Assembly (NCBI GenBank): GCA_013002165.1
Contig: JABDKO010000165.1
Span: 1 to 59,681 of the forward strand
DNA from: Rhodothermales bacterium
Lineage (GTDB): Bacteria; Bacteroidota; Rhodothermia; Rhodothermales; JABDKH01
Length of the DNA stretch: 59,681 nt
Direction of reading: 5' to 3'
The notes beneath the pieces were generated by a model. That model was not told where the DNA came from. It saw nothing but the letters and a program-made list of their open reading frames with translations, and ran no database searches. Numbering within the stretch: the stretch's first letter is position 1; each line of letters starts with the position of its first letter. Both the position numbers and the translations under genes were made by a program. Positions 27,434 to 38,122 of this stretch are shown here, in pieces.

Positions 27434-28012
27434 ATGTCAGAAACCGAAGTTGTGGGCGATAAACAAACAATCACGTGTCTTGGAGAGCAGTTCCGTGTGT
27501 ATATCGACCGCGATCGTATACAGGAACGAGTGACTGAACTCGGGCGGCAGATCTCCGAGGACTATGCCGGTAAGAAGCCAGTACTGATCGGTGTGCTGAA
27601 CGGCGCATTCATGTTTCTCGCCGATCTGATGCGAAGTATTTCTATTGATTGCGAGGTCGACTTTATTAAGCTATCGAGTTACGGCGCACAGAAAATTACA
27701 AGCGGTGTTGTGCACGAACTGAAGAAGATCGATGCTGAGATCACAGGTCGCCACGTAATTGTCGTAGAAGACATCGTCGACACTGGTCTCTCGATGTCGT
27801 ATCTCATGGAAAAAATGAGTTCGCATCGTCCGGCATCAGTTACGGCAGCCACCCTGCTTCACAAGCACGAGGCAACGAAGGTCGATATCAACTTGAAATA
27901 CGTGGGCTTCAAGATCAAGAATCTTTTTGTAATCGGATACGGACTCGATTACGGGCAGCTTGCACGCAACTATCCGGATATTTACATCCTCGATGAGGAA
28001 GTTGACGCGTAA
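27434..28012 (+). CDS. hpt: hypoxanthine phosphoribosyltransferase
   Basis: This 192-residue purine-salvage enzyme converts hypoxanthine (and guanine) with PRPP to IMP or GMP. The PRPP-binding loop is HVIVVEDIVDTGLSMSYL, and the N-terminal PVLIGVLNGAFMFLADL and VDFIKLSSYG stretches match the family. The last A of its TAA stop is the first base of the next ATG, so translation of the tryptophan dioxygenase gene is directly coupled to it. Confidence 0.95.
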   Translation: MSETEVVGDKQTITCLGEQFRVYIDRDRIQERVTELGRQISEDYAGKKPVLIGVLNGAFMFLADLMRSISIDCEVDFIKLSSYGAQKITSGVVHELKKIDAEITGRHVIVVEDIVDTGLSMSYLMEKMSSHRPASVTAATLLHKHEATKVDINLKYVGFKIKNLFVIGYGLDYGQLARNYPDIYILDEEVDA

Positions 28013-29103
28013 TGTCCGACGGCTCTGACAAGCAGATTTATTACTCCGACTACCTGAAGCTTGACGAGCTGCTCCAGTGTCAGGAGCTTGAAAGCGCGAG
28101 GCGTGGCAAGGTCGCTCACGATGAAATGCTTTTCATCGTAATTCATCAAGCATACGAGCTCTGGTTCAAGCAGATTATCTGGGAACTATCTGCTGTCCAT
28201 CGACTCTTCGACTCCTCCACGGTGAGTGAACCCAGCGTCGGAGAGGCCGTGCACCACCTGGAGCGGATCACCGAAATACAAAAGGTGCTGGTTCAGCAAA
28301 TTGATGTACTTGAAACGATGACTCCGCTGGATTTCCTTGACTTCCGAGATGCGCTGATACCAGCCTCGGGATTCCAGAGTGTTCAGTTCAGACTCGTAGA
28401 AAACATGCTCGGTCTGCGTCCTCAGGACCGACTCACATATGGTAGCGGATCTTACCTGTCCAGATTGCAGGAGAAGCACAGAAAACTGCTGCATGAATCC
28501 GAATCTCGACCATCGCTGTTTGATCTTGTAGATGAATGGCTCAGCCGTACTCCGTTTCTCGACTTTGGCGAATTCAATTTCTGGTCCGCCTATCGCCAGG
28601 CGGTTGACAAAATGCTTACGCAAGACAAGGATTCAATCGAATCGAACCCCTTGTTGTCGGACGAGAACAAAGAGGTGCAGTTAAAGGCCTTACGCGGTAC
28701 ACGCACCGAATTCGATTCTCTTTTTGACCGCGAGCTATACGATCGACTTGTAGCTGACGGGAAGCGCCGACTATCGTACAACGCGTTCACAGCTGCTTTG
28801 CTAATCAACCTGTACCGCAATCAGCCCATACTGCATTTGCCTTTTCGAATGTTAACGCTCCTGATGGATATCGATGAGCTATTTGCGCGCTGGCGTCACA
28901 GACATGCGCTCATGGTATCCCGCATGATTGGAAGTAAGATCGGGACGGGCGGATCTTCCGGTCACAACTATTTGAGTAAGGTTGCCGAACACAATCGGGT
29001 ATTTACCGACCTGTTCAACCTGTCGACTCTATACATCCCTCGATCTGAGCTACCTGAGCTTCCGAAAGCAGTGGTAGAGAAGATGGGCTTCAGTCTCGGT
29101 TAG
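28012..29103 (+). CDS. kynA: tryptophan 2,3-dioxygenase
   Basis: This haem enzyme opens the indole ring of L-tryptophan to N-formylkynurenine, the first step of the kynurenine pathway. At 363 residues it is of the long type, close in size to animal enzymes rather than the roughly 280-residue form of many proteobacteria. Recognisable blocks are YYSDYLKLDELLQCQ, HDEMLFIVIHQAYELWFKQI, and GSKIGTGGSSGHNYL; the proximal haem ligand is probably His298 in WRHRHALMV. It is coupled to hpt and converges on the kynurenine operon, with one base between the two stop codons. Confidence 0.95.
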   Translation: MSDGSDKQIYYSDYLKLDELLQCQELESARRGKVAHDEMLFIVIHQAYELWFKQIIWELSAVHRLFDSSTVSEPSVGEAVHHLERITEIQKVLVQQIDVLETMTPLDFLDFRDALIPASGFQSVQFRLVENMLGLRPQDRLTYGSGSYLSRLQEKHRKLLHESESRPSLFDLVDEWLSRTPFLDFGEFNFWSAYRQAVDKMLTQDKDSIESNPLLSDENKEVQLKALRGTRTEFDSLFDRELYDRLVADGKRRLSYNAFTAALLINLYRNQPILHLPFRMLTLLMDIDELFARWRHRHALMVSRMIGSKIGTGGSSGHNYLSKVAEHNRVFTDLFNLSTLYIPRSELPELPKAVVEKMGFSLG

Positions 29104-29104
29104 C

Positions 29105-30475
29105 TCAGCTCACAAGACCATCGTTGATGGTCAACGCAGGTAGCTGATTGACAAGGTCTCCGGCCATCTTCCAGTCGACATCTTCAATAGTTGATATACT
29201 CTGTATCAGAGTATTGAGAATATCGGCCTGTCGTTTCCCCCTTTCCAATGCGACTGAGTAGCGAAGCCGGTTGAACGTGACCATCGAATAGCGCGGTATG
29301 AACTTCGAAGGATATCGCAGCTCCAGTTCCAGTGCAATTTTACGTTTCAAGACGTACTGCGGGTCGGAAACGCTATCGCGCATTTCTACATAATTCTGAA
29401 GCGCCATCGTAGCGATCGCATCAGTGTCCGGCTTCCGTTCTGTCTCATAACGTGTAGATAGTTCTGGCCACTGACCAGTTGCGCCCTCATCGATCATACT
29501 TATCAATCGTGCGCAGTCTTCGAAAGAGCAGTTCATTCCTTGTCCGAAGAATGGTACGATCGCATGAGCTGCGTCGCCGAGCAGCAGGGCGTAACCGTCA
29601 TCGGACCATGGTTGACAGCGCACAGTGCCAAGCATCCCAACAGGGTTATGATCGTAGTCCATCTCGAAATCAGGCATAAGACTCAACGCATCGGCAAAAT
29701 CGGCCTCGAAAAATTTCTTCGCAGAACGTGCATCCGCGTACCTTGCGAAACTGATGTCACCCTCGTTTGGCATGAAGAGTGTCAACGTAAACGTGCCGTC
29801 GAGGTTAGGAAGCGCGATAAGCATGTATGACTTCCTCGGCCAGATATGCAAGGCGTTGTTGTCAAGCAAGTGGCTACCGTCTGGACCCGCGGGAATGGTT
29901 AGCTCTTTGTAACCGTGCGGAAGTATGTCCGAAGTAGATTGAATGTTGCGAGCTTTCTCGAGTGATTGTCGAACGACCGAGCCCGCCCCGTCGCACCCGA
30001 AAAGGTAACTCGTAGAGGTTTCCGTAATCCCGTGAGGACCGGAGAACCGGGCGATTCTACTATCAAAGTCTATGCTCTCGCAGCCGGTGTCAAAATGACA
30101 AGAAACATTCCCGGTGGCTTCGGCTGAGTCAAGGAGCAAATTGTTAAGTCCTCCGCGTGAGACGGATCGAATAACTTCGGTATCATCTTTACCGTATGGC
30201 TGAAGATGTGTCTCTCCGTCCAGGTCGTGAATCATCCGCCCGGCCATCGGAATGGTCAGTTTTAGAACGTTGTCGGCTACACCTGCCAGACCCAGAGCAT
30301 GAATGCCGCGTGTCGACAGCGCCAGGTTGATAGATCGACCGCCGTTTGCGGCAGACAGGCGGGGGTCGCTTCGTTTTTCGTAGACGTCTACGACCCAGCC
30401 CCGCTGCCCGAGAAGGGTTGCCAGAAGCGATCCAGCGAGGCCCGCTCCTACGATGACAGCTTTTTGTGGATCCAT
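29105..30475 (-). CDS. kmo: kynurenine 3-monooxygenase
   Basis: An FAD-dependent NADPH monooxygenase that converts L-kynurenine to 3-hydroxykynurenine. The 456-residue product starts with the Rossmann motif VIVGAGLAGSLLATLLGQRG, has the NGGRSINLALSTRG block that is characteristic of KMO, and the second FAD motif in GYALLLGDAAHAIVPFFGQG followed by MNCSFEDC. The C-terminal region lacks the strong membrane anchor of the eukaryotic enzyme. It is the last gene of the operon; its ATG overlaps the kynU stop by one base (TGATG). Confidence 0.95.
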   Translation of the reverse strand: MDPQKAVIVGAGLAGSLLATLLGQRGWVVDVYEKRSDPRLSAANGGRSINLALSTRGIHALGLAGVADNVLKLTIPMAGRMIHDLDGETHLQPYGKDDTEVIRSVSRGGLNNLLLDSAEATGNVSCHFDTGCESIDFDSRIARFSGPHGITETSTSYLFGCDGAGSVVRQSLEKARNIQSTSDILPHGYKELTIPAGPDGSHLLDNNALHIWPRKSYMLIALPNLDGTFTLTLFMPNEGDISFARYADARSAKKFFEADFADALSLMPDFEMDYDHNPVGMLGTVRCQPWSDDGYALLLGDAAHAIVPFFGQGMNCSFEDCARLISMIDEGATGQWPELSTRYETERKPDTDAIATMALQNYVEMRDSVSDPQYVLKRKIALELELRYPSKFIPRYSMVTFNRLRYSVALERGKRQADILNTLIQSISTIEDVDWKMAGDLVNQLPALTINDGLVS

Positions 30476-31746
30476 CAGACTGCTTCCATCATACTTCGTT
30501 TCAACTCCGTCGCAAAACGGTAGACATCCTCGAATGAATTGTATAGCGGAACCGGAGCAACCCGGATTACATCCGGTTCTCTCCAGTCACAAATAACACC
30601 ACTACCGGTCAGGCGGGAAAACACATCTCTTCCATCCCCGTCGACACGCAGCGAGAGCTGGCATCCTCGATCGGCCGGACTCCCGGGCGTGATACTTTCG
30701 ACACCCTCGATCTGCTTGACAAGCCATTCAAGATACCCGGTAAGTTTCCTGGACTTATCGATCAATCTTCCAAAGCCAGCTTCTTCAAACATGTCCAGTG
30801 ACGCTCTAAGAGATGCCAGCTGGAGAATCGGGGGGTTGCTCAGCTGCCATGCCTCAGCCGTGCCGACAGGCTTGAAGGTGTCTGGCATTGCAAACCGTGT
30901 CTCTTTGTCGTGCCCCCACCAACCGTTGAAGCGCGGAAGTGACGAATCGTTGGAATGCCGCTCATTGACAAACACTCCGGCAATACCCCCGGGCCCCGAG
31001 TTGAGGTATTTGTATGAGCACCACGCCGCGAAATCTACATCCCAGTCATGTAACTGTATCTCGACGTTGCCGATGGCGTGCGCGAGATCAAAGCCGACAA
31101 CACACCCGGCGTTGTGGCCCTCCGCTGTAATCGCCTGCAGATCAAAATACTGCCCGGTATAGTAGTTGACGCCGCCGACAAGGATCGTGGCAATTTCATT
31201 TCCGTGACTGCGAATGGTCTCGAGAATATCCTCAGTTCGAAGTGAGGCTTCCCCCGGTCTTGCCTGTAGTTCTATGATCGACTCAGCCGGATCATAACCG
31301 TGGAACCGGGCCTGCGAGGCGACAGCATACTTGTCTGAAGGGAATGCGTCGGCTTCTATGAGAATCTTGTGCCGTGAATTCGTTGGTCGGTAGAACGAGA
31401 CCATGAGCAAGTGAAGATTCACCGTGAGTGAGTTCATCACAACAACCTCGTGCGGCAGCCCACCCACAAGTTCTGCTGACTGTCCCGCCACGAGTTCATG
31501 GTAACGCATCCACGGGTGGCGCGCATGGACATGACCTTCGACTCCAAGCTTGCGCCAGTCTTCAAGCTCGATCAGGACGTACTCGGCTGCAGTTTTTGGT
31601 TGTAGGCCGAGGGAATTCCCCGCGAAGTAGACTGCAGGCTGCCCATTTGCATCGAGCGGCAAATGGAAACGATTGCGGAAGGAAGAAAGCGGGTCCTCCT
31701 GGTCACACATTCGTGCATAATCCCGTGTATTCTGGTATTCCATCAT
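30475..31746 (-). CDS. kynU: kynureninase
   Basis: A PLP enzyme that splits 3-hydroxykynurenine (or kynurenine) to 3-hydroxyanthranilate (or anthranilate) and alanine. The 423-residue product has the early YFAGNSLGLQPK, the GFDLAHAIGNVEIQLHDWDV block and the cofactor Lys in WCSYKYLNSGPGGIAG. Its length is normal for the family. Two ATG codons are adjacent at the start; the first overlaps the formamidase stop by one base. Confidence 0.95.
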   Translation of the reverse strand: MMEYQNTRDYARMCDQEDPLSSFRNRFHLPLDANGQPAVYFAGNSLGLQPKTAAEYVLIELEDWRKLGVEGHVHARHPWMRYHELVAGQSAELVGGLPHEVVVMNSLTVNLHLLMVSFYRPTNSRHKILIEADAFPSDKYAVASQARFHGYDPAESIIELQARPGEASLRTEDILETIRSHGNEIATILVGGVNYYTGQYFDLQAITAEGHNAGCVVGFDLAHAIGNVEIQLHDWDVDFAAWCSYKYLNSGPGGIAGVFVNERHSNDSSLPRFNGWWGHDKETRFAMPDTFKPVGTAEAWQLSNPPILQLASLRASLDMFEEAGFGRLIDKSRKLTGYLEWLVKQIEGVESITPGSPADRGCQLSLRVDGDGRDVFSRLTGSGVICDWREPDVIRVAPVPLYNSFEDVYRFATELKRSMMEAV

Positions 31747-32489
31747 TAGTCGCGGTAACGAAAGAGGACTGGACGGCTTGGTGAGGCATCCGTCTCAAGG
31801 AGGGGCCACGAGTTGCAGAATGCATAGCGGCCATCTAAAATGGAGTCCGGAACGAAGACCATCTCTGTGATTGTGCGCGACCTGCCCGCTTCGTTGACAA
31901 CCGACCCATCGCGTACACTCCAGAATTCGTGATGTGCCGGAAGGTCAGTGGAATCTGCTGGATCAATAGAGGGAAGGTCAACGACAAGATGGCGAAGTCC
32001 CTGCGCAACGATTAACGAAATCGCATCAGGATGAAACCACGTGGCAGGTTCGCGGTCGTAATTCCGGTGGCGCTTTGAATTCTCGTTCGGTGTAGTGCGA
32101 ATGACAAGAGTTTCTATGACGTCATTGTATCTGTCAAGAAAAGATTCGAGGTGACTCGCTTCGATCGGCGAATCGCCATTTACCGTAACGAGTAACGCCG
32201 GCGAAAACACGATTGCGGGAATTTCTGACACATAGATCGGGTCGAGCGTAATATGGCCGGCGCACTCGGTATGGGTGCCGTTACAATGCGGAGTTACCGT
32301 CACAACTGCGACGTTGCACGACGCGCCAAGCTGCGTGCTACCCGTGAAATTTCCTGTCTGGTAATTAGACTGGATCGCGGGGTTTGCCCCGAAGAAGGCT
32401 GGCTGCGCCCCGCCGAACTCCAGCGGTATCGCTATATCGATTCCGGATTGAAGGTCTATTGAGTCGATACCGTCCCGCTTAGTACTCAT
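31746..32489 (-). CDS. kynB: kynurenine formamidase (cyclase-family, KynB type)
   Basis: A metal-dependent hydrolase that removes formate from N-formylkynurenine. It belongs to the cyclase family, seen in the metal-binding HCNGTHTECAGH motif (family HxGTHxDxxxH) and a later DLPSIDPADST. I place the start at ATG 32489 (MSTKRDGIDS), which overlaps the decarboxylase stop as ATGA; an in-frame ATG at 32525 would overlap that gene by 40 bases. The resulting 247 residues are somewhat longer than the usual KynB of about 210. Position between the decarboxylase and kynureninase genes supports the role. Confidence 0.88.
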   Translation of the reverse strand: MSTKRDGIDSIDLQSGIDIAIPLEFGGAQPAFFGANPAIQSNYQTGNFTGSTQLGASCNVAVVTVTPHCNGTHTECAGHITLDPIYVSEIPAIVFSPALLVTVNGDSPIEASHLESFLDRYNDVIETLVIRTTPNENSKRHRNYDREPATWFHPDAISLIVAQGLRHLVVDLPSIDPADSTDLPAHHEFWSVRDGSVVNEAGRSRTITEMVFVPDSILDGRYAFCNSWPLLETDASPSRPVLFRYRD

Positions 32490-33526
32490 GCTGTCACGAA
32501 TTGCGACCGGGTCAATCCGAGCCATTCAAGAGCATTCAAACCCAGGACGCGGGCCCGGTCATCATCCGTCCAATGCGTCATGGACTCCACAAGTTTACCT
32601 GGCTCATGCTCGCCGAGGGGGAAGGGGTAATCGGAGCCGAGCAGAATATTATTGACGCCCAGAAGCCCTACAAGCATTTCAAGCGTCTCCGGATCATGAA
32701 CCAGCGAGTCCACAAGAATGCGATCAAGGTATTTGCGCGGGTGATACGGGTTGTCTACTGCGCAGAGGTCCGGACGAACGTCATAACCGTGGCTGATGCG
32801 GCCGATAGTGGAGGGGAACGACCCTCCGCCGTGGGCAAAAGCTACCTTAAGATCCGGAAGGCGTTCGAGTACGCCTCCAAAAATGAGCGAGCAGATCGCT
32901 CGCGACGTTTCAGCAGGCATTCCGACCAGCCACGGAAGCCAGTAGTCCGGCATCTGAGACTGACCCATCATGTCCCACGGATGGACAAAAACGGAGGCAC
33001 CGAGTTCAGATGCAGCGGCAAAAAAATCGAAGAGCTGCGGTTCGTTCAGATTCCATTCGTTGATATGGGTGCCAATCTGCACACCCGACAAACCCAGTTC
33101 GTTAACACATCGTTCCAGTTCTTTGATCGCGAGATCGGGACTTTGCAATGGTACCGTGCCGAGTCCGGCAAATCGGCGAGGGAAGTCCTCGATGACAGAC
33201 GCAATGTGATCATTCAGAATTATTGAAAGATCGTACGCGTGTTCAGGTTGCGCCCAGTAGCTAAACATCACCGGTACCGTGGACAGTACCTGGACGTGAA
33301 CACCGCATGCGTCGGATTCACCAATTCGCACCGATGGATCCCAGCAATTCGATTCAATTTCCCGGAAGAAGACATCATCCTTGATCATCCGCGCGCAGCA
33401 CGGTTTATGATGTTCAAGGCGAATGAAACCACCGTATCCATACCGTTCACGCAGGTCCGGCCACGTTTCCGGCAGGATGTGCGTGTGAATATCGACTTTA
33501 AAGAAAGGCGGGGTATTAATAGACAA
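32486..33526 (-). CDS. 2-amino-3-carboxymuconate-6-semialdehyde decarboxylase (ACMSD)
   Basis: A zinc amidohydrolase-fold enzyme that decarboxylates ACMS to 2-aminomuconate semialdehyde and so diverts flux away from quinolinate. The 346-residue product has the metal-binding DIHTHILPE (His14, His16), GVQIGTHINEWNL, FVHPWDMMG, VAFAHGGGSFP and the terminal metal Asp in LLGSDYPFPLGE. The start is TTG 33526, since no ATG or GTG lies between the preceding in-frame stop and the metal motif. It shares ATGA with the formamidase gene. It follows the dioxygenase gene by 15 bases. Confidence 0.93.
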   Translation of the reverse strand: MSINTPPFFKVDIHTHILPETWPDLRERYGYGGFIRLEHHKPCCARMIKDDVFFREIESNCWDPSVRIGESDACGVHVQVLSTVPVMFSYWAQPEHAYDLSIILNDHIASVIEDFPRRFAGLGTVPLQSPDLAIKELERCVNELGLSGVQIGTHINEWNLNEPQLFDFFAAASELGASVFVHPWDMMGQSQMPDYWLPWLVGMPAETSRAICSLIFGGVLERLPDLKVAFAHGGGSFPSTIGRISHGYDVRPDLCAVDNPYHPRKYLDRILVDSLVHDPETLEMLVGLLGVNNILLGSDYPFPLGEHEPGKLVESMTHWTDDDRARVLGLNALEWLGLTRSQFVTA

Positions 33527-33541
33527 AATGGATTGTCAAGC

Positions 33542-34060
33542 TTATTGTGGACGTTCCATAACAGTACCGCATTCGTCACATTTCCGATTCTCATCCGAGC
33601 TGAAGAAGCGTTCCATTACGGGCGGGAGCTGCTTGACGATGTCAGTCAACTTGAAGTACTCATCGTACAACTTGTTGCCACAATTCTCGCAAAACCACAT
33701 CATTCCATCGGTCTCGTTGTCGGTCCTTTTTTTCTCGATAACCAGTCCGATCGATCCAGCGGTTCGCTGCGGTGAATGCGGGACCTTCGGCGGCAGGAGA
33801 AACATCTCGCCCTCGTTAATATGGATGTCCTTCTGCTCACCATCATCAATAATCTTGACTACAATGTTGCCTTCAACCTGATAAAACAGCTCTTCGCTTT
33901 CGTTGTAGTGATAGTCTTTGCGAGCATTCGGACCTCCGACAACCATAACAATGAAGTTGTCCGCGAGATCGTAGACACATTTGTTGCCAACCGGGGGTTT
34001 CAAAAGATGTCGGTTTTCATCGATCCAGCTGGTGAAATTGATAGGAGGAATAACTGCCAT
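33542..34060 (-). CDS. 3-hydroxyanthranilate 3,4-dioxygenase
   Basis: A non-haem Fe(II) cupin that cleaves 3-hydroxyanthranilate to ACMS. In the 172-residue product the iron ligands are in KDYHYNESEELFYQ (His and Glu) and PPKVPHSPQR (His). A second, rubredoxin-like metal site typical of bacterial enzymes is made by CENC and CDEC near the C-terminus. Length matches the bacterial form. The upstream gap (34061-34116) is 56 bases, the longest inside the operon, so an internal promoter is possible. Confidence 0.95.
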   Translation of the reverse strand: MAVIPPINFTSWIDENRHLLKPPVGNKCVYDLADNFIVMVVGGPNARKDYHYNESEELFYQVEGNIVVKIIDDGEQKDIHINEGEMFLLPPKVPHSPQRTAGSIGLVIEKKRTDNETDGMMWFCENCGNKLYDEYFKLTDIVKQLPPVMERFFSSDENRKCDECGTVMERPQ

Positions 34061-34116: not shown

Positions 34117-34539
34117 TCAAATGGTTGCGATACATTTTAGTTCAATTGCTATCGGTGTAGGAAGGCTGTTGACTTCTACCGTTGTCCGGGCAGGTTGGAT
34201 GTCGCCAAAATACTCGGCATAGATCCTGTTGTACGTCTGGAAATCGTCTTTCATGTTTGTTAGAAATACGGTGACGTCGAAAAGTTGATTCCATGATGAG
34301 CCGGCCTCCTCGACTATATTTCTGACATTGTCGAATACTGACCTGCACTGGGCTTCGATGTCGTAGTCCACGATTTCGCCGTTTTCATTCAGAGTCACAC
34401 CGGGGATGTCCACTTGCCCCGGTTTTCTGGGTCCGACACCCGAGAGGAAAAGCAGGTTGCCGACTTTCCGTGCATGTGGATAGGCTCCCACCGGTTCCGG
34501 GGCATTTTTCAGTCGAAAAATTGAATCATTCATCATCAT
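34117..34539 (-). CDS. RidA-family deaminase, probable 2-aminomuconate deaminase
   Basis: A 140-residue YjgF/YER057c/UK114 (RidA) protein. Family features are APEPVGAYPHARKVGNLLFL near the start, NVRNIVEEAGSSWNQLFDVT and the late PARTTVEV. Within tryptophan and aminophenol pathways, members of this branch deaminate 2-aminomuconate. The position directly after the semialdehyde dehydrogenase supports that activity. Three consecutive ATG codons (34539, 34536, 34533) open the gene, with GAAG a few bases upstream. It overlaps the dehydrogenase gene by up to 14 bases. Confidence 0.88.
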   Translation of the reverse strand: MMMNDSIFRLKNAPEPVGAYPHARKVGNLLFLSGVGPRKPGQVDIPGVTLNENGEIVDYDIEAQCRSVFDNVRNIVEEAGSSWNQLFDVTVFLTNMKDDFQTYNRIYAEYFGDIQPARTTVEVNSLPTPIAIELKCIATI

Positions 34540-35974
34540 AGATCTTCAGACAGACATTCTTTGGTTCGGTAAAAAAGCGCATAGCATGGTATCCACCTTC
34601 ACGGCCGAGGCCGGATTCCCGGACACCGCCGAATGGTGTTCGGAGGTCCCGCACCATCCAGCAGTTTATCCAGACGATTCCTGAATTGATCCGGCTAGCA
34701 AGGCGATGAGCGCGAGACACATCATTGGTCCAGATCACGGACGCCAGCCCATACGCGGATTCATTGGCCATCGCCAGGGCTTCAGATTCAGTGTCGAACG
34801 GTGCAATCGTGACGACTGGTCCAAAGATTTCTTCCTGATTCGTGCGACAGTCATTCGGCAGTCCTTCAATTATCGTCGGTCCGAAGAACCAGCCTCCAGA
34901 ACAGCGACCCTCCGGCAGGATTCGCGAGCCACCGGTCAAAACTGCTCCACCTTCAGTTTTCGCCAGTTCGACATACCTTTGCACCTTGTCCAGATGATCT
35001 GCCGAAACGATTGCGCCCAGGTCAGAGGTGTCGTCCCGGGGATCACCAACCGTTAGGCGACGAGTCCTCTTTACGAATTCGGTTTTGAACTTCTCGTAAA
35101 TCGGCCTCTGTATATAGATGCGCGATCCGCAAAGGCATATCTCACCCTGATTTGAAAACGACGATCGGATAGTCGTTTCGATCATCCTGTCAAAATCACA
35201 GTCGTCGAAGATCAGGACTGGATTCTTACCTCCCATTTCGAGAGAGACCTTCTTGAAAGCGGCCGCGGCTTTGGCCGCAATCAATCGACCTGTCGCCGTT
35301 GAACCTGTGAACGAAATGGCCTTTACATCCGGATGTCCCGTAATTGCATCGCCAACCGTGTGCCCGTATCCGTGCACAATGTTCAGACAACCTGCAGGAA
35401 GGCCAGCTTCTGAACAGATTTCAGCCAGTACCGAAGCTGTGGCGGGCGTGATTTCGGATGGTTTTGCTACGACTGAATTACCTGCAGCAAGGGCAGGCGC
35501 AATCTTCCATGTAAAAAGGTACAGGGGAAGATTCCAGGGTGAGATACACCCTACAACGCCGAGTGGATGATTGATCGAATAATTGACCGTATCGCCGTTG
35601 GCGTATGCATCACTTCCAAACTGCACCGCGGCAGACGCAAAGAAACGGAAGTTGCGCGCCGATCTTGGAATATCCACTGATCGCGCGACGTGTACAGGTT
35701 TGCCGTTGTCACATGACTCCAGTAAAGCAAGCTCCTCGAGTCTTGCCTCAATACCCTCGGCTATCCGGTTGAGAACTCTGCTGCGAGCTTCGCCGCCAAT
35801 ACTGGACCACTCTTTCTGTTCGCTGGCAGCACTGACTGCGGAAGCAACATCTTCAGGAGTAGAGTCAGGGATTGTAGAGAACTCTTGTCCCGTTGCGGGT
35901 TCGATTACCGGAATGCGTCCACCAGATTCTGACTCGCGAAACTCTCCTCCGATATAATTCCGATAGCGCTGCAT
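34526..35974 (-). CDS. aldehyde dehydrogenase, probable 2-aminomuconate-6-semialdehyde dehydrogenase
   Basis: A 482-residue NAD-dependent aldehyde dehydrogenase. Motifs: FTGSTATGRLIAAKA for NAD binding, the general-base Glu in SLEMGGKNPVL, and the catalytic Cys in SNQGEICLCGSR. The type and the operon context point to oxidation of 2-aminomuconate semialdehyde to 2-aminomuconate (ALDH8/AmnC group). A wider hydroxymuconate-semialdehyde specificity cannot be excluded. It begins one base after the SDR stop. Confidence 0.9.
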   Translation of the reverse strand: MQRYRNYIGGEFRESESGGRIPVIEPATGQEFSTIPDSTPEDVASAVSAASEQKEWSSIGGEARSRVLNRIAEGIEARLEELALLESCDNGKPVHVARSVDIPRSARNFRFFASAAVQFGSDAYANGDTVNYSINHPLGVVGCISPWNLPLYLFTWKIAPALAAGNSVVAKPSEITPATASVLAEICSEAGLPAGCLNIVHGYGHTVGDAITGHPDVKAISFTGSTATGRLIAAKAAAAFKKVSLEMGGKNPVLIFDDCDFDRMIETTIRSSFSNQGEICLCGSRIYIQRPIYEKFKTEFVKRTRRLTVGDPRDDTSDLGAIVSADHLDKVQRYVELAKTEGGAVLTGGSRILPEGRCSGGWFFGPTIIEGLPNDCRTNQEEIFGPVVTIAPFDTESEALAMANESAYGLASVIWTNDVSRAHRLASRINSGIVWINCWMVRDLRTPFGGVRESGLGREGGYHAMRFFTEPKNVCLKIYDDE

Positions 35975-35975
35975 G

Positions 35976-36764
35976 TTATATGGAGTTCAAACGGCCCCCA
36001 TCAACAGGGAGGCTGACGCCGGTAATGTATGCTGCGTGATCTGATGAAAGAAACACAACTGCGGCGGCTATCTCGAAGGGCCCGGCAAATCGGCCAACGG
36101 GTATTGCTGACACAAGGTCCTGTTCTACCTGGTCCTCCGATTTGCCCGACTTGGCGGCTTTCGATTTAATCAGAGCGTCGATACGTCCCGTCTGGGTTGC
36201 GCCGGGAAGCACATTATTTACGGTGATGCCAAATGGCGCCACCTCTTTTGAAAGAGTCTTTGCCCAGCTGGCAACGGCGCCTCTGGTCGTATTCGATACT
36301 CCGATTCCGGGGATGGGCTCGCGCACCGAAGTCGAGACAATGTTTACGATGCGACCGAAGGAACGCTCCTTCATACCCGGCAGGGTAGCCTGCACCAGTA
36401 TATGATTGTTGATGAGATGCGAATTAAATGCTTTTAGAAAGTCATCTACAGATGCAGACGCGATCGGCCCTGCCGGGGGGCCCCCCGTGTTGTTCACGAG
36501 GATATCGAATCCGGCGTGCGAACTTGTGTACGTGTCGATACGCTCGGCGACCTGGCTCGGATCAGAAAAATCGGCAACCACAACATCACACGAAACGCCG
36601 AACCCGGATACTTCATGTCGTACCGTCTCAAGGCTTTCCGGATTACGAGCCATCAAGACGATGTCCGCACCACACTCGGCCATCATGAGTGCCGAGGCAC
36701 GTCCGATTCCCTGCGTACTTCCGCACACGAGTGCCCGGCGGTTATGTAACGAGAGGTCAATCAT
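35976..36764 (-). CDS. SDR-family oxidoreductase with atypical active site
   Basis: A 262-residue short-chain dehydrogenase/reductase fold. The cofactor motif is CGSTQGIGRASALMM, the NNAG motif appears as VNNTGGPP, and the C-terminus VFLSSDHAAYITGVSLPVDG is canonical. At the catalytic site, however, Ser144 is kept but the YxxxK pair is replaced by Ser157 and Arg161 (GVSNTTRGAV). I recall an SDR branch with this SN..R pattern, so it is likely a functional family, not a decayed gene. The gene lies between the HD gene (2-base gap) and the semialdehyde dehydrogenase (1-base gap). A role as the reductase after 2-aminomuconate is my inference. Confidence 0.85.
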   Translation of the reverse strand: MIDLSLHNRRALVCGSTQGIGRASALMMAECGADIVLMARNPESLETVRHEVSGFGVSCDVVVADFSDPSQVAERIDTYTSSHAGFDILVNNTGGPPAGPIASASVDDFLKAFNSHLINNHILVQATLPGMKERSFGRIVNIVSTSVREPIPGIGVSNTTRGAVASWAKTLSKEVAPFGITVNNVLPGATQTGRIDALIKSKAAKSGKSEDQVEQDLVSAIPVGRFAGPFEIAAAVVFLSSDHAAYITGVSLPVDGGRLNSI

Positions 36765-36766
36765 AT

Positions 36767-38035
36767 CTATTCAACGGGTTCGATTTCCGGCGGGTAGGCA
36801 ATATAGTGGCGCTCCTCGTTTTGTGTAAGTGCCATTACCGCAGTTGCAGCATCCAATTCAGATAATTCAACCAGACGATCCCCTGCTACAAGCTGAATTC
36901 CACCGGTAGCCCGCTTGTATGCGGTGTGGGTAACTGATCCAGAATGTAGATAATACGTCAGGGTATCTTCGATCCCATCTGATTCGCTTGCTCGACTGTC
37001 CTGTATCCATCTGACCACACGTGACTTCGCCCGGGCCAGGCGCTCCGCGGATGAACTCACAGACTGAAATCTAACCTTGAACAAACGCCGGTTGATAAAT
37101 CTGTCGGAAAGGTCCGAGAGTACAAAGTCTTTGGACGAGCGCCACTGCTTGATCGAATAAAGAATGTCTGAATCGTCGAGTGCGCTGTACGATCTCCAAA
37201 CAATGTCACTTGAGATCGTTGACGAGTCCACGCTGTTTGTCACAAAGTATGACAGTGCCGGTGAAGCAGGAACGTCCAGACGTCCGTTCGCATGAAGAAA
37301 TCTTGCCCGACGGAGGATTGACTTTAGTACATGATCACCAGCGATGACGCCACGATGAAGGTACACTTGCCAGTACATGAATCGACGCGCCTGCAGGAAA
37401 TTCTCGATGGTATATGTTGCCTTCTGGTCAAAAGCCAGCGTTCCTGATCCATCATTGTTGACAAACAGACGCATCATTTTGATTATCCGATCCACACCGA
37501 CTACGCCCTCCATTACACCGGTGTAGTACGAGTCTCTTCGCAGATAGTCGAGTCTGTCCATATCCAGTTGCGATGATACCAACTGATGGAAGACAGGTGA
37601 CGGGTACGAACCGTCAAATATCTCGATAGCCAGGTCCAGCGCGCCGTCGAATCGATTGTTTATCTCAACGAGCAACACCCGGCTCATGTCCTCGTGTTGA
37701 AATTCGGAGATCAGGTCGTTTTCAAGTGTGTGCGAAAAAGGGCCGTGGCCGATATCGTGCATCAATGCGGCGATGCGGGCAGCCTCGTGTTCTTCATCGG
37801 TGATACTGACTCCCTGCTTGCGGAGTGACTGCAGGGCGTCATCCATAAGGGCCATTGCGCCGAGTGCATGCCCGAAGCGCGAATGCTCTGCCCCGGGAAA
37901 AACTAGATATCCAACACCCAGTTGACGTATTCGCCGAAGTCGCTGGACTTCAGGCTGTTGGATCAAGGACAACAATAGCGATCCATCCACGGAGATAAAA
38001 CCGTGGACCGGATCAGAAAAAATCCGACTCTGCAT
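36767..38035 (-). CDS. HD-superfamily phosphohydrolase
   Basis: A 422-residue HD-domain hydrolase of the dGTPase-like group. It begins with the family's FSDPVHGFI, followed by HSRFGHALGA (His51) and the metal motif ALMHDIGHGPFSH (His93, Asp94), and later SSQLDMDRLDYLRRDSYYTG. The natural substrate is not known for most of this group. ATG 38035 puts the conserved motif at the N-terminus; a TTG three codons upstream is less likely. The stop is 2 bases from the SDR start, so it is probably the first gene of the kynurenine operon transcript. Confidence 0.87.
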   Translation of the reverse strand: MQSRIFSDPVHGFISVDGSLLLSLIQQPEVQRLRRIRQLGVGYLVFPGAEHSRFGHALGAMALMDDALQSLRKQGVSITDEEHEAARIAALMHDIGHGPFSHTLENDLISEFQHEDMSRVLLVEINNRFDGALDLAIEIFDGSYPSPVFHQLVSSQLDMDRLDYLRRDSYYTGVMEGVVGVDRIIKMMRLFVNNDGSGTLAFDQKATYTIENFLQARRFMYWQVYLHRGVIAGDHVLKSILRRARFLHANGRLDVPASPALSYFVTNSVDSSTISSDIVWRSYSALDDSDILYSIKQWRSSKDFVLSDLSDRFINRRLFKVRFQSVSSSAERLARAKSRVVRWIQDSRASESDGIEDTLTYYLHSGSVTHTAYKRATGGIQLVAGDRLVELSELDAATAVMALTQNEERHYIAYPPEIEPVE

Positions 38036-38122
38036 GGCTGGCAAAATGCTCTACCGGATCTGAAAGAAATTCGACCTGAACTTCGTAGTTTATCCAGCCA
38101 ATTCCAATTGAAATTGCCGGTA

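Follow-up and report, generated by a model that had tools for sequence, protein, structure and literature searches.

The SDR gene at 35976..36764 (minus strand) of the window, the whole 59,681-nucleotide stretch analyzed, from a MAG of Rhodothermales, probably encodes a conjugate reductase of the kynurenine catabolic branch that reduces a C=C bond with NADPH, with 2-oxoadipate as its candidate product; we put the probability of this assignment at roughly 0.6. The odds are also slightly in favor of the SDR clade being the first identified 2-aminomuconate / 2-oxo-3-hexenedioate reductase gene, which would define an animal-like oxoadipate branch in several bacterial phyla and replace the decarboxylase-hydratase-aldolase pathway.

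The kynurenine operon of the window

The SDR gene, an ORF of 262 amino acids with an ATG start, was located in a tight minus-strand operon in the order HD, SDR, ALDH, RidA, 3-HAO, ACMSD, KynB-like cyclase, kynureninase, and KMO, and a tryptophan 2,3-dioxygenase gene was found on the plus strand just past the KMO end. The products were assigned as follows.

36767..38044, minus strand: HD-domain phosphohydrolase-like gene, first in the operon
35976..36764, minus strand: SNxxR-type SDR, candidate 2-aminomuconate / 2-oxo-3-hexenedioate C=C reductase (Pfam, alignment, AlphaFold2)
34526..35974, minus strand: AMSDH, 2-aminomuconate semialdehyde dehydrogenase (best NCBIfam match TIGR03216, 564 bits, under the 693-bit cut-off)
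34117..34539, minus strand: RidA-family protein, likely 2-aminomuconate deaminase
33542..34060, minus strand: 3-HAO, 3-hydroxyanthranilate 3,4-dioxygenase (NF009763/TIGR03037, over the cut-off)
32486..33526, minus strand: ACMSD, aminocarboxymuconate semialdehyde decarboxylase (Amidohydro_2)
31746..32525, minus strand: KynB-like cyclase-family protein, likely arylformamidase (TIGR03035, below the cut-off)
30475..31746, minus strand: kynureninase (TIGR01814, over the cut-off)
29105..30475, minus strand: KMO, kynurenine 3-monooxygenase (FAD_binding_3, gene context)
28012..29103, plus strand: tryptophan 2,3-dioxygenase, TDO (PF03301)

The initial annotation had placed the SDR between the HD gene and the semialdehyde dehydrogenase, separated from them by 2 and 1 bases, and the coordinates agreed, being 36767 for the end of the HD gene upstream and 35974 for the start of the downstream ALDH, which was of the 2-hydroxymuconic-semialdehyde-DH type. 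Promoter and terminator patterns in the operon occurred at about chance level and were set aside. An HD-domain gene also headed or adjoined the kynurenine operon in two genomes of the same order without the SDR (L061, 12182-13702, minus strand; L062, 6490-7800, plus strand), and was not seen in the remaining kynurenine clusters examined.

Co-occurrence with AMSDH and with the lower pathway

A search for 3-HAO was conducted in 396 genomes of the same phylum, and the surroundings of 60 matches were inspected; an SDR ortholog (46-57% identical) adjoined 3-HAO in 24 of these regions, in several gene orders. With the ortholog cut-off placed in the score gap between 213 and 198 bits, 64 of the 396 genomes held the SDR, 87 held 3-HAO, and 50 held both (Fisher p 5e-27, shared ancestry ignored). 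In the 49 genomes with both genes in which positions were compared, the distance from the SDR to 3-HAO was below 6 kb in 29, and in 4 more the SDR was next to AMSDH. Within the fetched flank of the best 80 SDR loci in genome_contigs, AMSDH was found at 48, kynureninase (KYNU) at 46, 3-HAO at 45, and ACMSD at 39. The gene order in Microbulbifer was that of the window (SDR-AMSDH-RidA-3HAO-ACMSD-KynB-KynU-KMO), linked SDR loci were also present in Planctomycetota and Phycisphaerales MAGs and in an Alteromonadaceae MAG, and TDO adjoined the SDR on an Ignavibacteria contig. The lack of a kynurenine link in other species had been named beforehand as evidence against the proposal; linkage to 3-HAO, ACMSD, and AMSDH instead recurred across several phyla.

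Clusters of family f29 (L069-L071, L080, L081, L103) kept the same SDR clade together with a divergent ACMSD, about 31-35% identical to that of the window, and a divergent RidA (about 40%). A muconate-cycloisomerase-like ORF beside a Planctomycetota SDR was found to be a cis-3-hydroxyproline dehydratase instead. By Pfam, the extra genes of the clusters were mostly unrelated (OmpA/PD40, glycosyltransferase, DNA polymerase, nucleoside hydrolase), which indicated that there was no conserved downstream enzyme among them, the exception being a ThDP enzyme at two Microbulbifer loci.

Among 66 tested 3-HAO genomes, 46 had both the SDR and AMSDH, 4 had AMSDH only, 3 had the SDR only, and 13 had neither (p 5e-8, genomes treated as independent). 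In family f37, four genomes with only KYNU, KMO, and 3-HAO, a set that on its own is as for NAD synthesis, lacked both AMSDH and the SDR, and four genomes with AMSDH had the SDR. These results supported the conclusion that the SDR goes with the ACMSD/AMSDH branch and not simply with 3-HAO. The SDR tracked AMSDH in presence and absence, which places it at the AMSDH product or below and not in the upper pathway.

The known bacterial route, reported for Burkholderia cepacia, converts 2-aminomuconate to 4-oxalocrotonate, from which pyruvate and acetate arise by the action of a decarboxylase, a hydratase, and an aldolase (PMC8777792). That route and the window operon are alike as far as 2-aminomuconate, with 3-HAO, ACMSD, AMSDH, and a RidA-type deaminase, whereas from there on a single SDR is proposed to replace the decarboxylase and aldolase genes. 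When the XylI/DmpG decarboxylase and aldolase of plasmid pWW0 were used as queries, with pWW0 as the positive control, the control was positive and neither 4-oxalocrotonate decarboxylase (DmpH) nor aldolase (DmpG) was found in the window genome (G000). The initial annotation, which had remarked that these genes were missing, was borne out for the genome as a whole, and a complete oxalocrotonate pathway elsewhere in it, which had been named as another refuting outcome, did not turn up. This search replaced one with PF07836, for which there was no match in the window genome and the control was equally silent. The three FAA hydrolases of the window genome belonged to other families.

DmpH and DmpG were likewise found in 0 of the 46 genomes with SDR and AMSDH, where the single weak FAA-family match was in G030 (55 bits), whereas both were present in 2 of the 4 genomes with AMSDH and without the SDR (G128 and G368; hypergeometric p about 0.005, calculated by hand with genomes taken as independent). 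In G128, a decarboxylase-type gene was directly by 3-HAO (best NCBIfam match TIGR03218, 258 bits, under the cut-off). Six plasmid 3-HAO clusters were read, and the three with ACMSD (Rhodococcus, Caballeronia, Polaromonas) had genes of the DmpH type, with no ortholog of the SDR in the vicinity; an SDR within the Caballeronia cluster was unrelated (27% identity over 70 amino acids). The clusters on Ruegeria, Rhizobium, and Phaeobacter plasmids (L270, L274, L275) had a semialdehyde dehydrogenase and no ACMSD, and two of the three had an aspartate dehydrogenase and a dihydrodipicolinate-synthase-family gene; these clusters possibly represent another way to degrade 3-hydroxyanthranilate. G085 and G294 (L061 and L062), of the same order as the window, had AMSDH, RidA, 3-HAO, and ACMSD without the SDR or the decarboxylase and aldolase, which counts against the assignment.

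The same distribution bears on the possibility that the SDR acts in this branch on another compound, reducing an unstable semialdehyde, imine, or side product as a repair or detoxification enzyme. In favor of such a role, the SDR tracks AMSDH, RidA-family partners are classic repair enzymes, and 2-aminomuconate semialdehyde has been reported to cyclize spontaneously (PMC10143591). However, a repair function leaves unexplained why the decarboxylase and aldolase were missing from all 46 genomes with SDR and AMSDH and present in two of the four that had AMSDH and no SDR, and no other gene in the clusters would then complete the pathway; we regard it as unlikely.

The SDR was not present only where the pathway was present. 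Fourteen genomes held it without 3-HAO, ACMSD, or AMSDH, and three further SDR genomes were without ACMSD and AMSDH. In 4 of the 14, the SDR was next to kynureninase; at loci L124-L127 (family f24), where kynureninase adjoins the SDR and glutaryl-CoA dehydrogenase (GCDH) is near in two, we report an incomplete or different kynurenine route. By names read from sequence, the SDR adjoined an acyl-CoA synthetase in G196 and G390 and a MaoC-like gene in G190, so the SDR may have a second role. These genomes, together with the annotation of the homolog 1o5i as a 3-oxoacyl-ACP reductase, give some room to an acyl-chain function for the SDR, as a 3-hydroxyacyl-CoA dehydrogenase or as a reductase of the 3-oxoacyl or enoyl type, in fatty-acid metabolism or downstream of glutaryl-CoA, with no more than co-regulation connecting it to the kynurenine genes. 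Tyr and Lys are the residues of carbonyl reduction in classical SDRs, however, and the SDR has neither; it came and went together with AMSDH in 3-HAO genomes and was missing from AMSDH-containing genomes with the meta-cleavage pathway, which would not remove the need for a fatty-acid enzyme. An acyl-chain role is therefore rather improbable.

Many of the surveyed genomes are related and in 16 of the 49 compared genomes the SDR was distant from 3-HAO, and from AMSDH too where this was compared, but its several distinct arrangements in several phyla and its switching with AMSDH inside family f37 make it very improbable that the kynurenine association arose by chance or from shared ancestry of a few clades.

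Active site and fold of the SDR clade

The window SDR matched PF13561 (149.5 bits) and PF00106 in Pfam and had the classical SDR Rossmann fold with GxxxGxG (residues 15-21) and NNxG, with G15, G19, G21, and N91-N92 conserved in the alignment. The N-S-Y-K tetrad positions of E. coli FabG corresponded to His116-Ser144-Ser157-Arg161; the catalytic Ser144 was retained, the Asn position was occupied by His116, and the YxxxK pair of classical SDRs was replaced by Ser157 and Arg161, in agreement with what had been described earlier. The residues ARN were found at positions 39-41, just past beta-2. ARN at this place is a usual sign of NADPH preference in SDRs, which suggests NADPH as the cofactor.

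Aligning the window SDR with 46 genome_contigs orthologs showed Ser157 and Arg161 to be invariant, and Ser144, Ser157, Arg161, His116, Arg194, GxxxGxG, and ARN were all invariant or nearly so in these 47 sequences; His116 was frequent in the SDR clade, with Leu instead in some families. The clade-conserved Arg194 could hold a carboxylate. A catalytically dead or structural relic in the operon is hardly credible, for although the SDR has lost the two residues that transfer protons in classical SDRs, the active-site and NADPH-motif residues are conserved in this way and the SDR was retained along with AMSDH in about 17 families with different gene orders.

The Ser/Arg motif was not special to the kynurenine operon, because S(N)xxR was common to a wider SDR subfamily that included same-phylum paralogs and the solved structures 5va8, 5vps, 5idx, 2z1n, and 1o5i. 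The initial annotation had taken Ser157/Arg161 to imply reduction of a C=C or imine bond. The residues do not imply this chemistry by themselves, since they are common to a large subfamily; SNxxR alone marks an atypical SDR subfamily and no particular reaction. The kynurenine-type SDRs had a clade-specific block (STSVK.P...GVSNT.RGA), and in a maximum-likelihood tree they grouped as a single clade (99/95) that excluded nearly all paralogs in the analysis; the long-branch paralog L160 fell within this clade with unsure placement. Searches with the SDR found no relative in viral contigs and only distant homologs (<=42%) in plasmids.

The AlphaFold2 model of the window SDR, built with 47 sequences, had a pLDDT of 93, and its best structural matches were SDR folds, in the order Burkholderia SNxxR SDRs, AerF, and YwfH/BacG. 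The Burkholderia proteins 5va8, 5vps, and 5idx/5idy came closest among solved proteins in both sequence (35-36% identity) and fold (TM 0.91-0.94), and had the same S/N/R motif with NADP(H) bound; they were deposited without function and lie outside the kynurenine clade. AerF of aeruginosin and BacG/YwfH of bacilysin lack YxxxK and have been reported to reduce conjugated C=C bonds with NADPH. Like the window SDR, AerF (PDB 6jh7/6jha/6jhb) and BacG (3u49/3u4c) have an SDR fold (TM 0.83-0.95) without YxxxK and an Arg corresponding to Arg194. However, they are distant (about 30-33% identity), their active-site letters are K-G-S-N (AerF) and K-G-N-N (BacG) as against H-S-S-R, so that the window SDR lacks the BacG/AerF residues Lys 116, Gly 144, and Asn 161, and their role is in antibiotic or peptide biosynthesis, whereas the context of the window SDR is catabolic. 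By analogy, the window SDR clade plausibly works like AerF and BacG even though it is outside their type.

Proposed reaction and proposed fate of 2-oxoadipate

2-Oxo-3-hexenedioate combines a 2-oxo acid group with a conjugated C=C, and reduction of this bond yields 2-oxoadipate. In the proposed mechanism, ACMSD and AMSDH would yield 2-aminomuconate, RidA (or water) would deaminate it to 2-oxo-3-hexenedioate (4-oxalocrotonate), and hydride transfer by the SDR to the C=C in conjugation with the 2-oxo function would produce 2-oxoadipate. The two steps could equally well run the other way round, with the SDR reducing 2-aminomuconate to an enamine that RidA would hydrolyze afterwards. As in animals, 2-oxoadipate would then be converted to glutaryl-CoA by a 2-oxoacid dehydrogenase complex, followed by glutaryl-CoA dehydrogenase. 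The product and its fate would thus be the same as in the mammalian branch from 2-aminomuconate through 2-oxoadipate to glutaryl-CoA.

The animal kynurenine pathway as drawn includes the reduction of 2-aminomuconate to 2-oxoadipate. In the open literature searched, we found no gene for this mammalian step and no mention of an 'aminomuconate reductase'. Because cultured marine Flavobacteriaceae and Microbulbifer carry a conserved, expressible, and apparently co-transcribed candidate, the step can be put to a direct test. If the conjugate-reductase assignment is true, it would also correct annotations across the many kynurenine operons that currently have no clear end product, and the SDR would be a mechanistic case of conjugate reduction without Tyr/Lys.

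With a query verified as GCDH, no match was found in the window MAG (94.5% complete) at E<=1e-100, and its six ACADs were at most about 29% identical to GCDH over long stretches. The window MAG was the sole exception among the SDR- and AMSDH-containing genomes, 45 of 46 of which had GCDH, as did all other genomes of the same order listed; the gene may have been truly lost or may fall in a gap of the assembly. The initial annotation had proposed the SDR as the missing reductive step and had set GCDH against meta-cleavage genes in the genome. The conservation of the SDR in the AMSDH branch and the absence of the lower pathway, with neither decarboxylase nor aldolase, stood, whereas the Ser/Arg argument and the expectation of GCDH in this MAG did not. 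Since GCDH was present in 293 of the 396 genomes of the phylum, its presence is permissive and constitutes weak evidence for the oxoadipate route.

GCDH was located about 5 kb from the SDR in G115, in one 20-kb region with a complete SDR cluster, and close to kynureninase and the SDR in G301 and G254. This proximity was rejected as proof, because the three genomes belong to a single family (f24) and the enzyme is common. At the two Microbulbifer loci (L233, 8129-9988; L269, 8285-9982), the ThDP enzyme directly upstream of the SDR was acetolactate-synthase-like (NF006052). The substrates of ThDP enzymes are 2-oxo acids, so this gene next to the SDR fits a 2-oxo-acid product; the enzyme is perhaps a 2-oxoadipate decarboxylase, which would provide Microbulbifer with an alternative fate for 2-oxoadipate.
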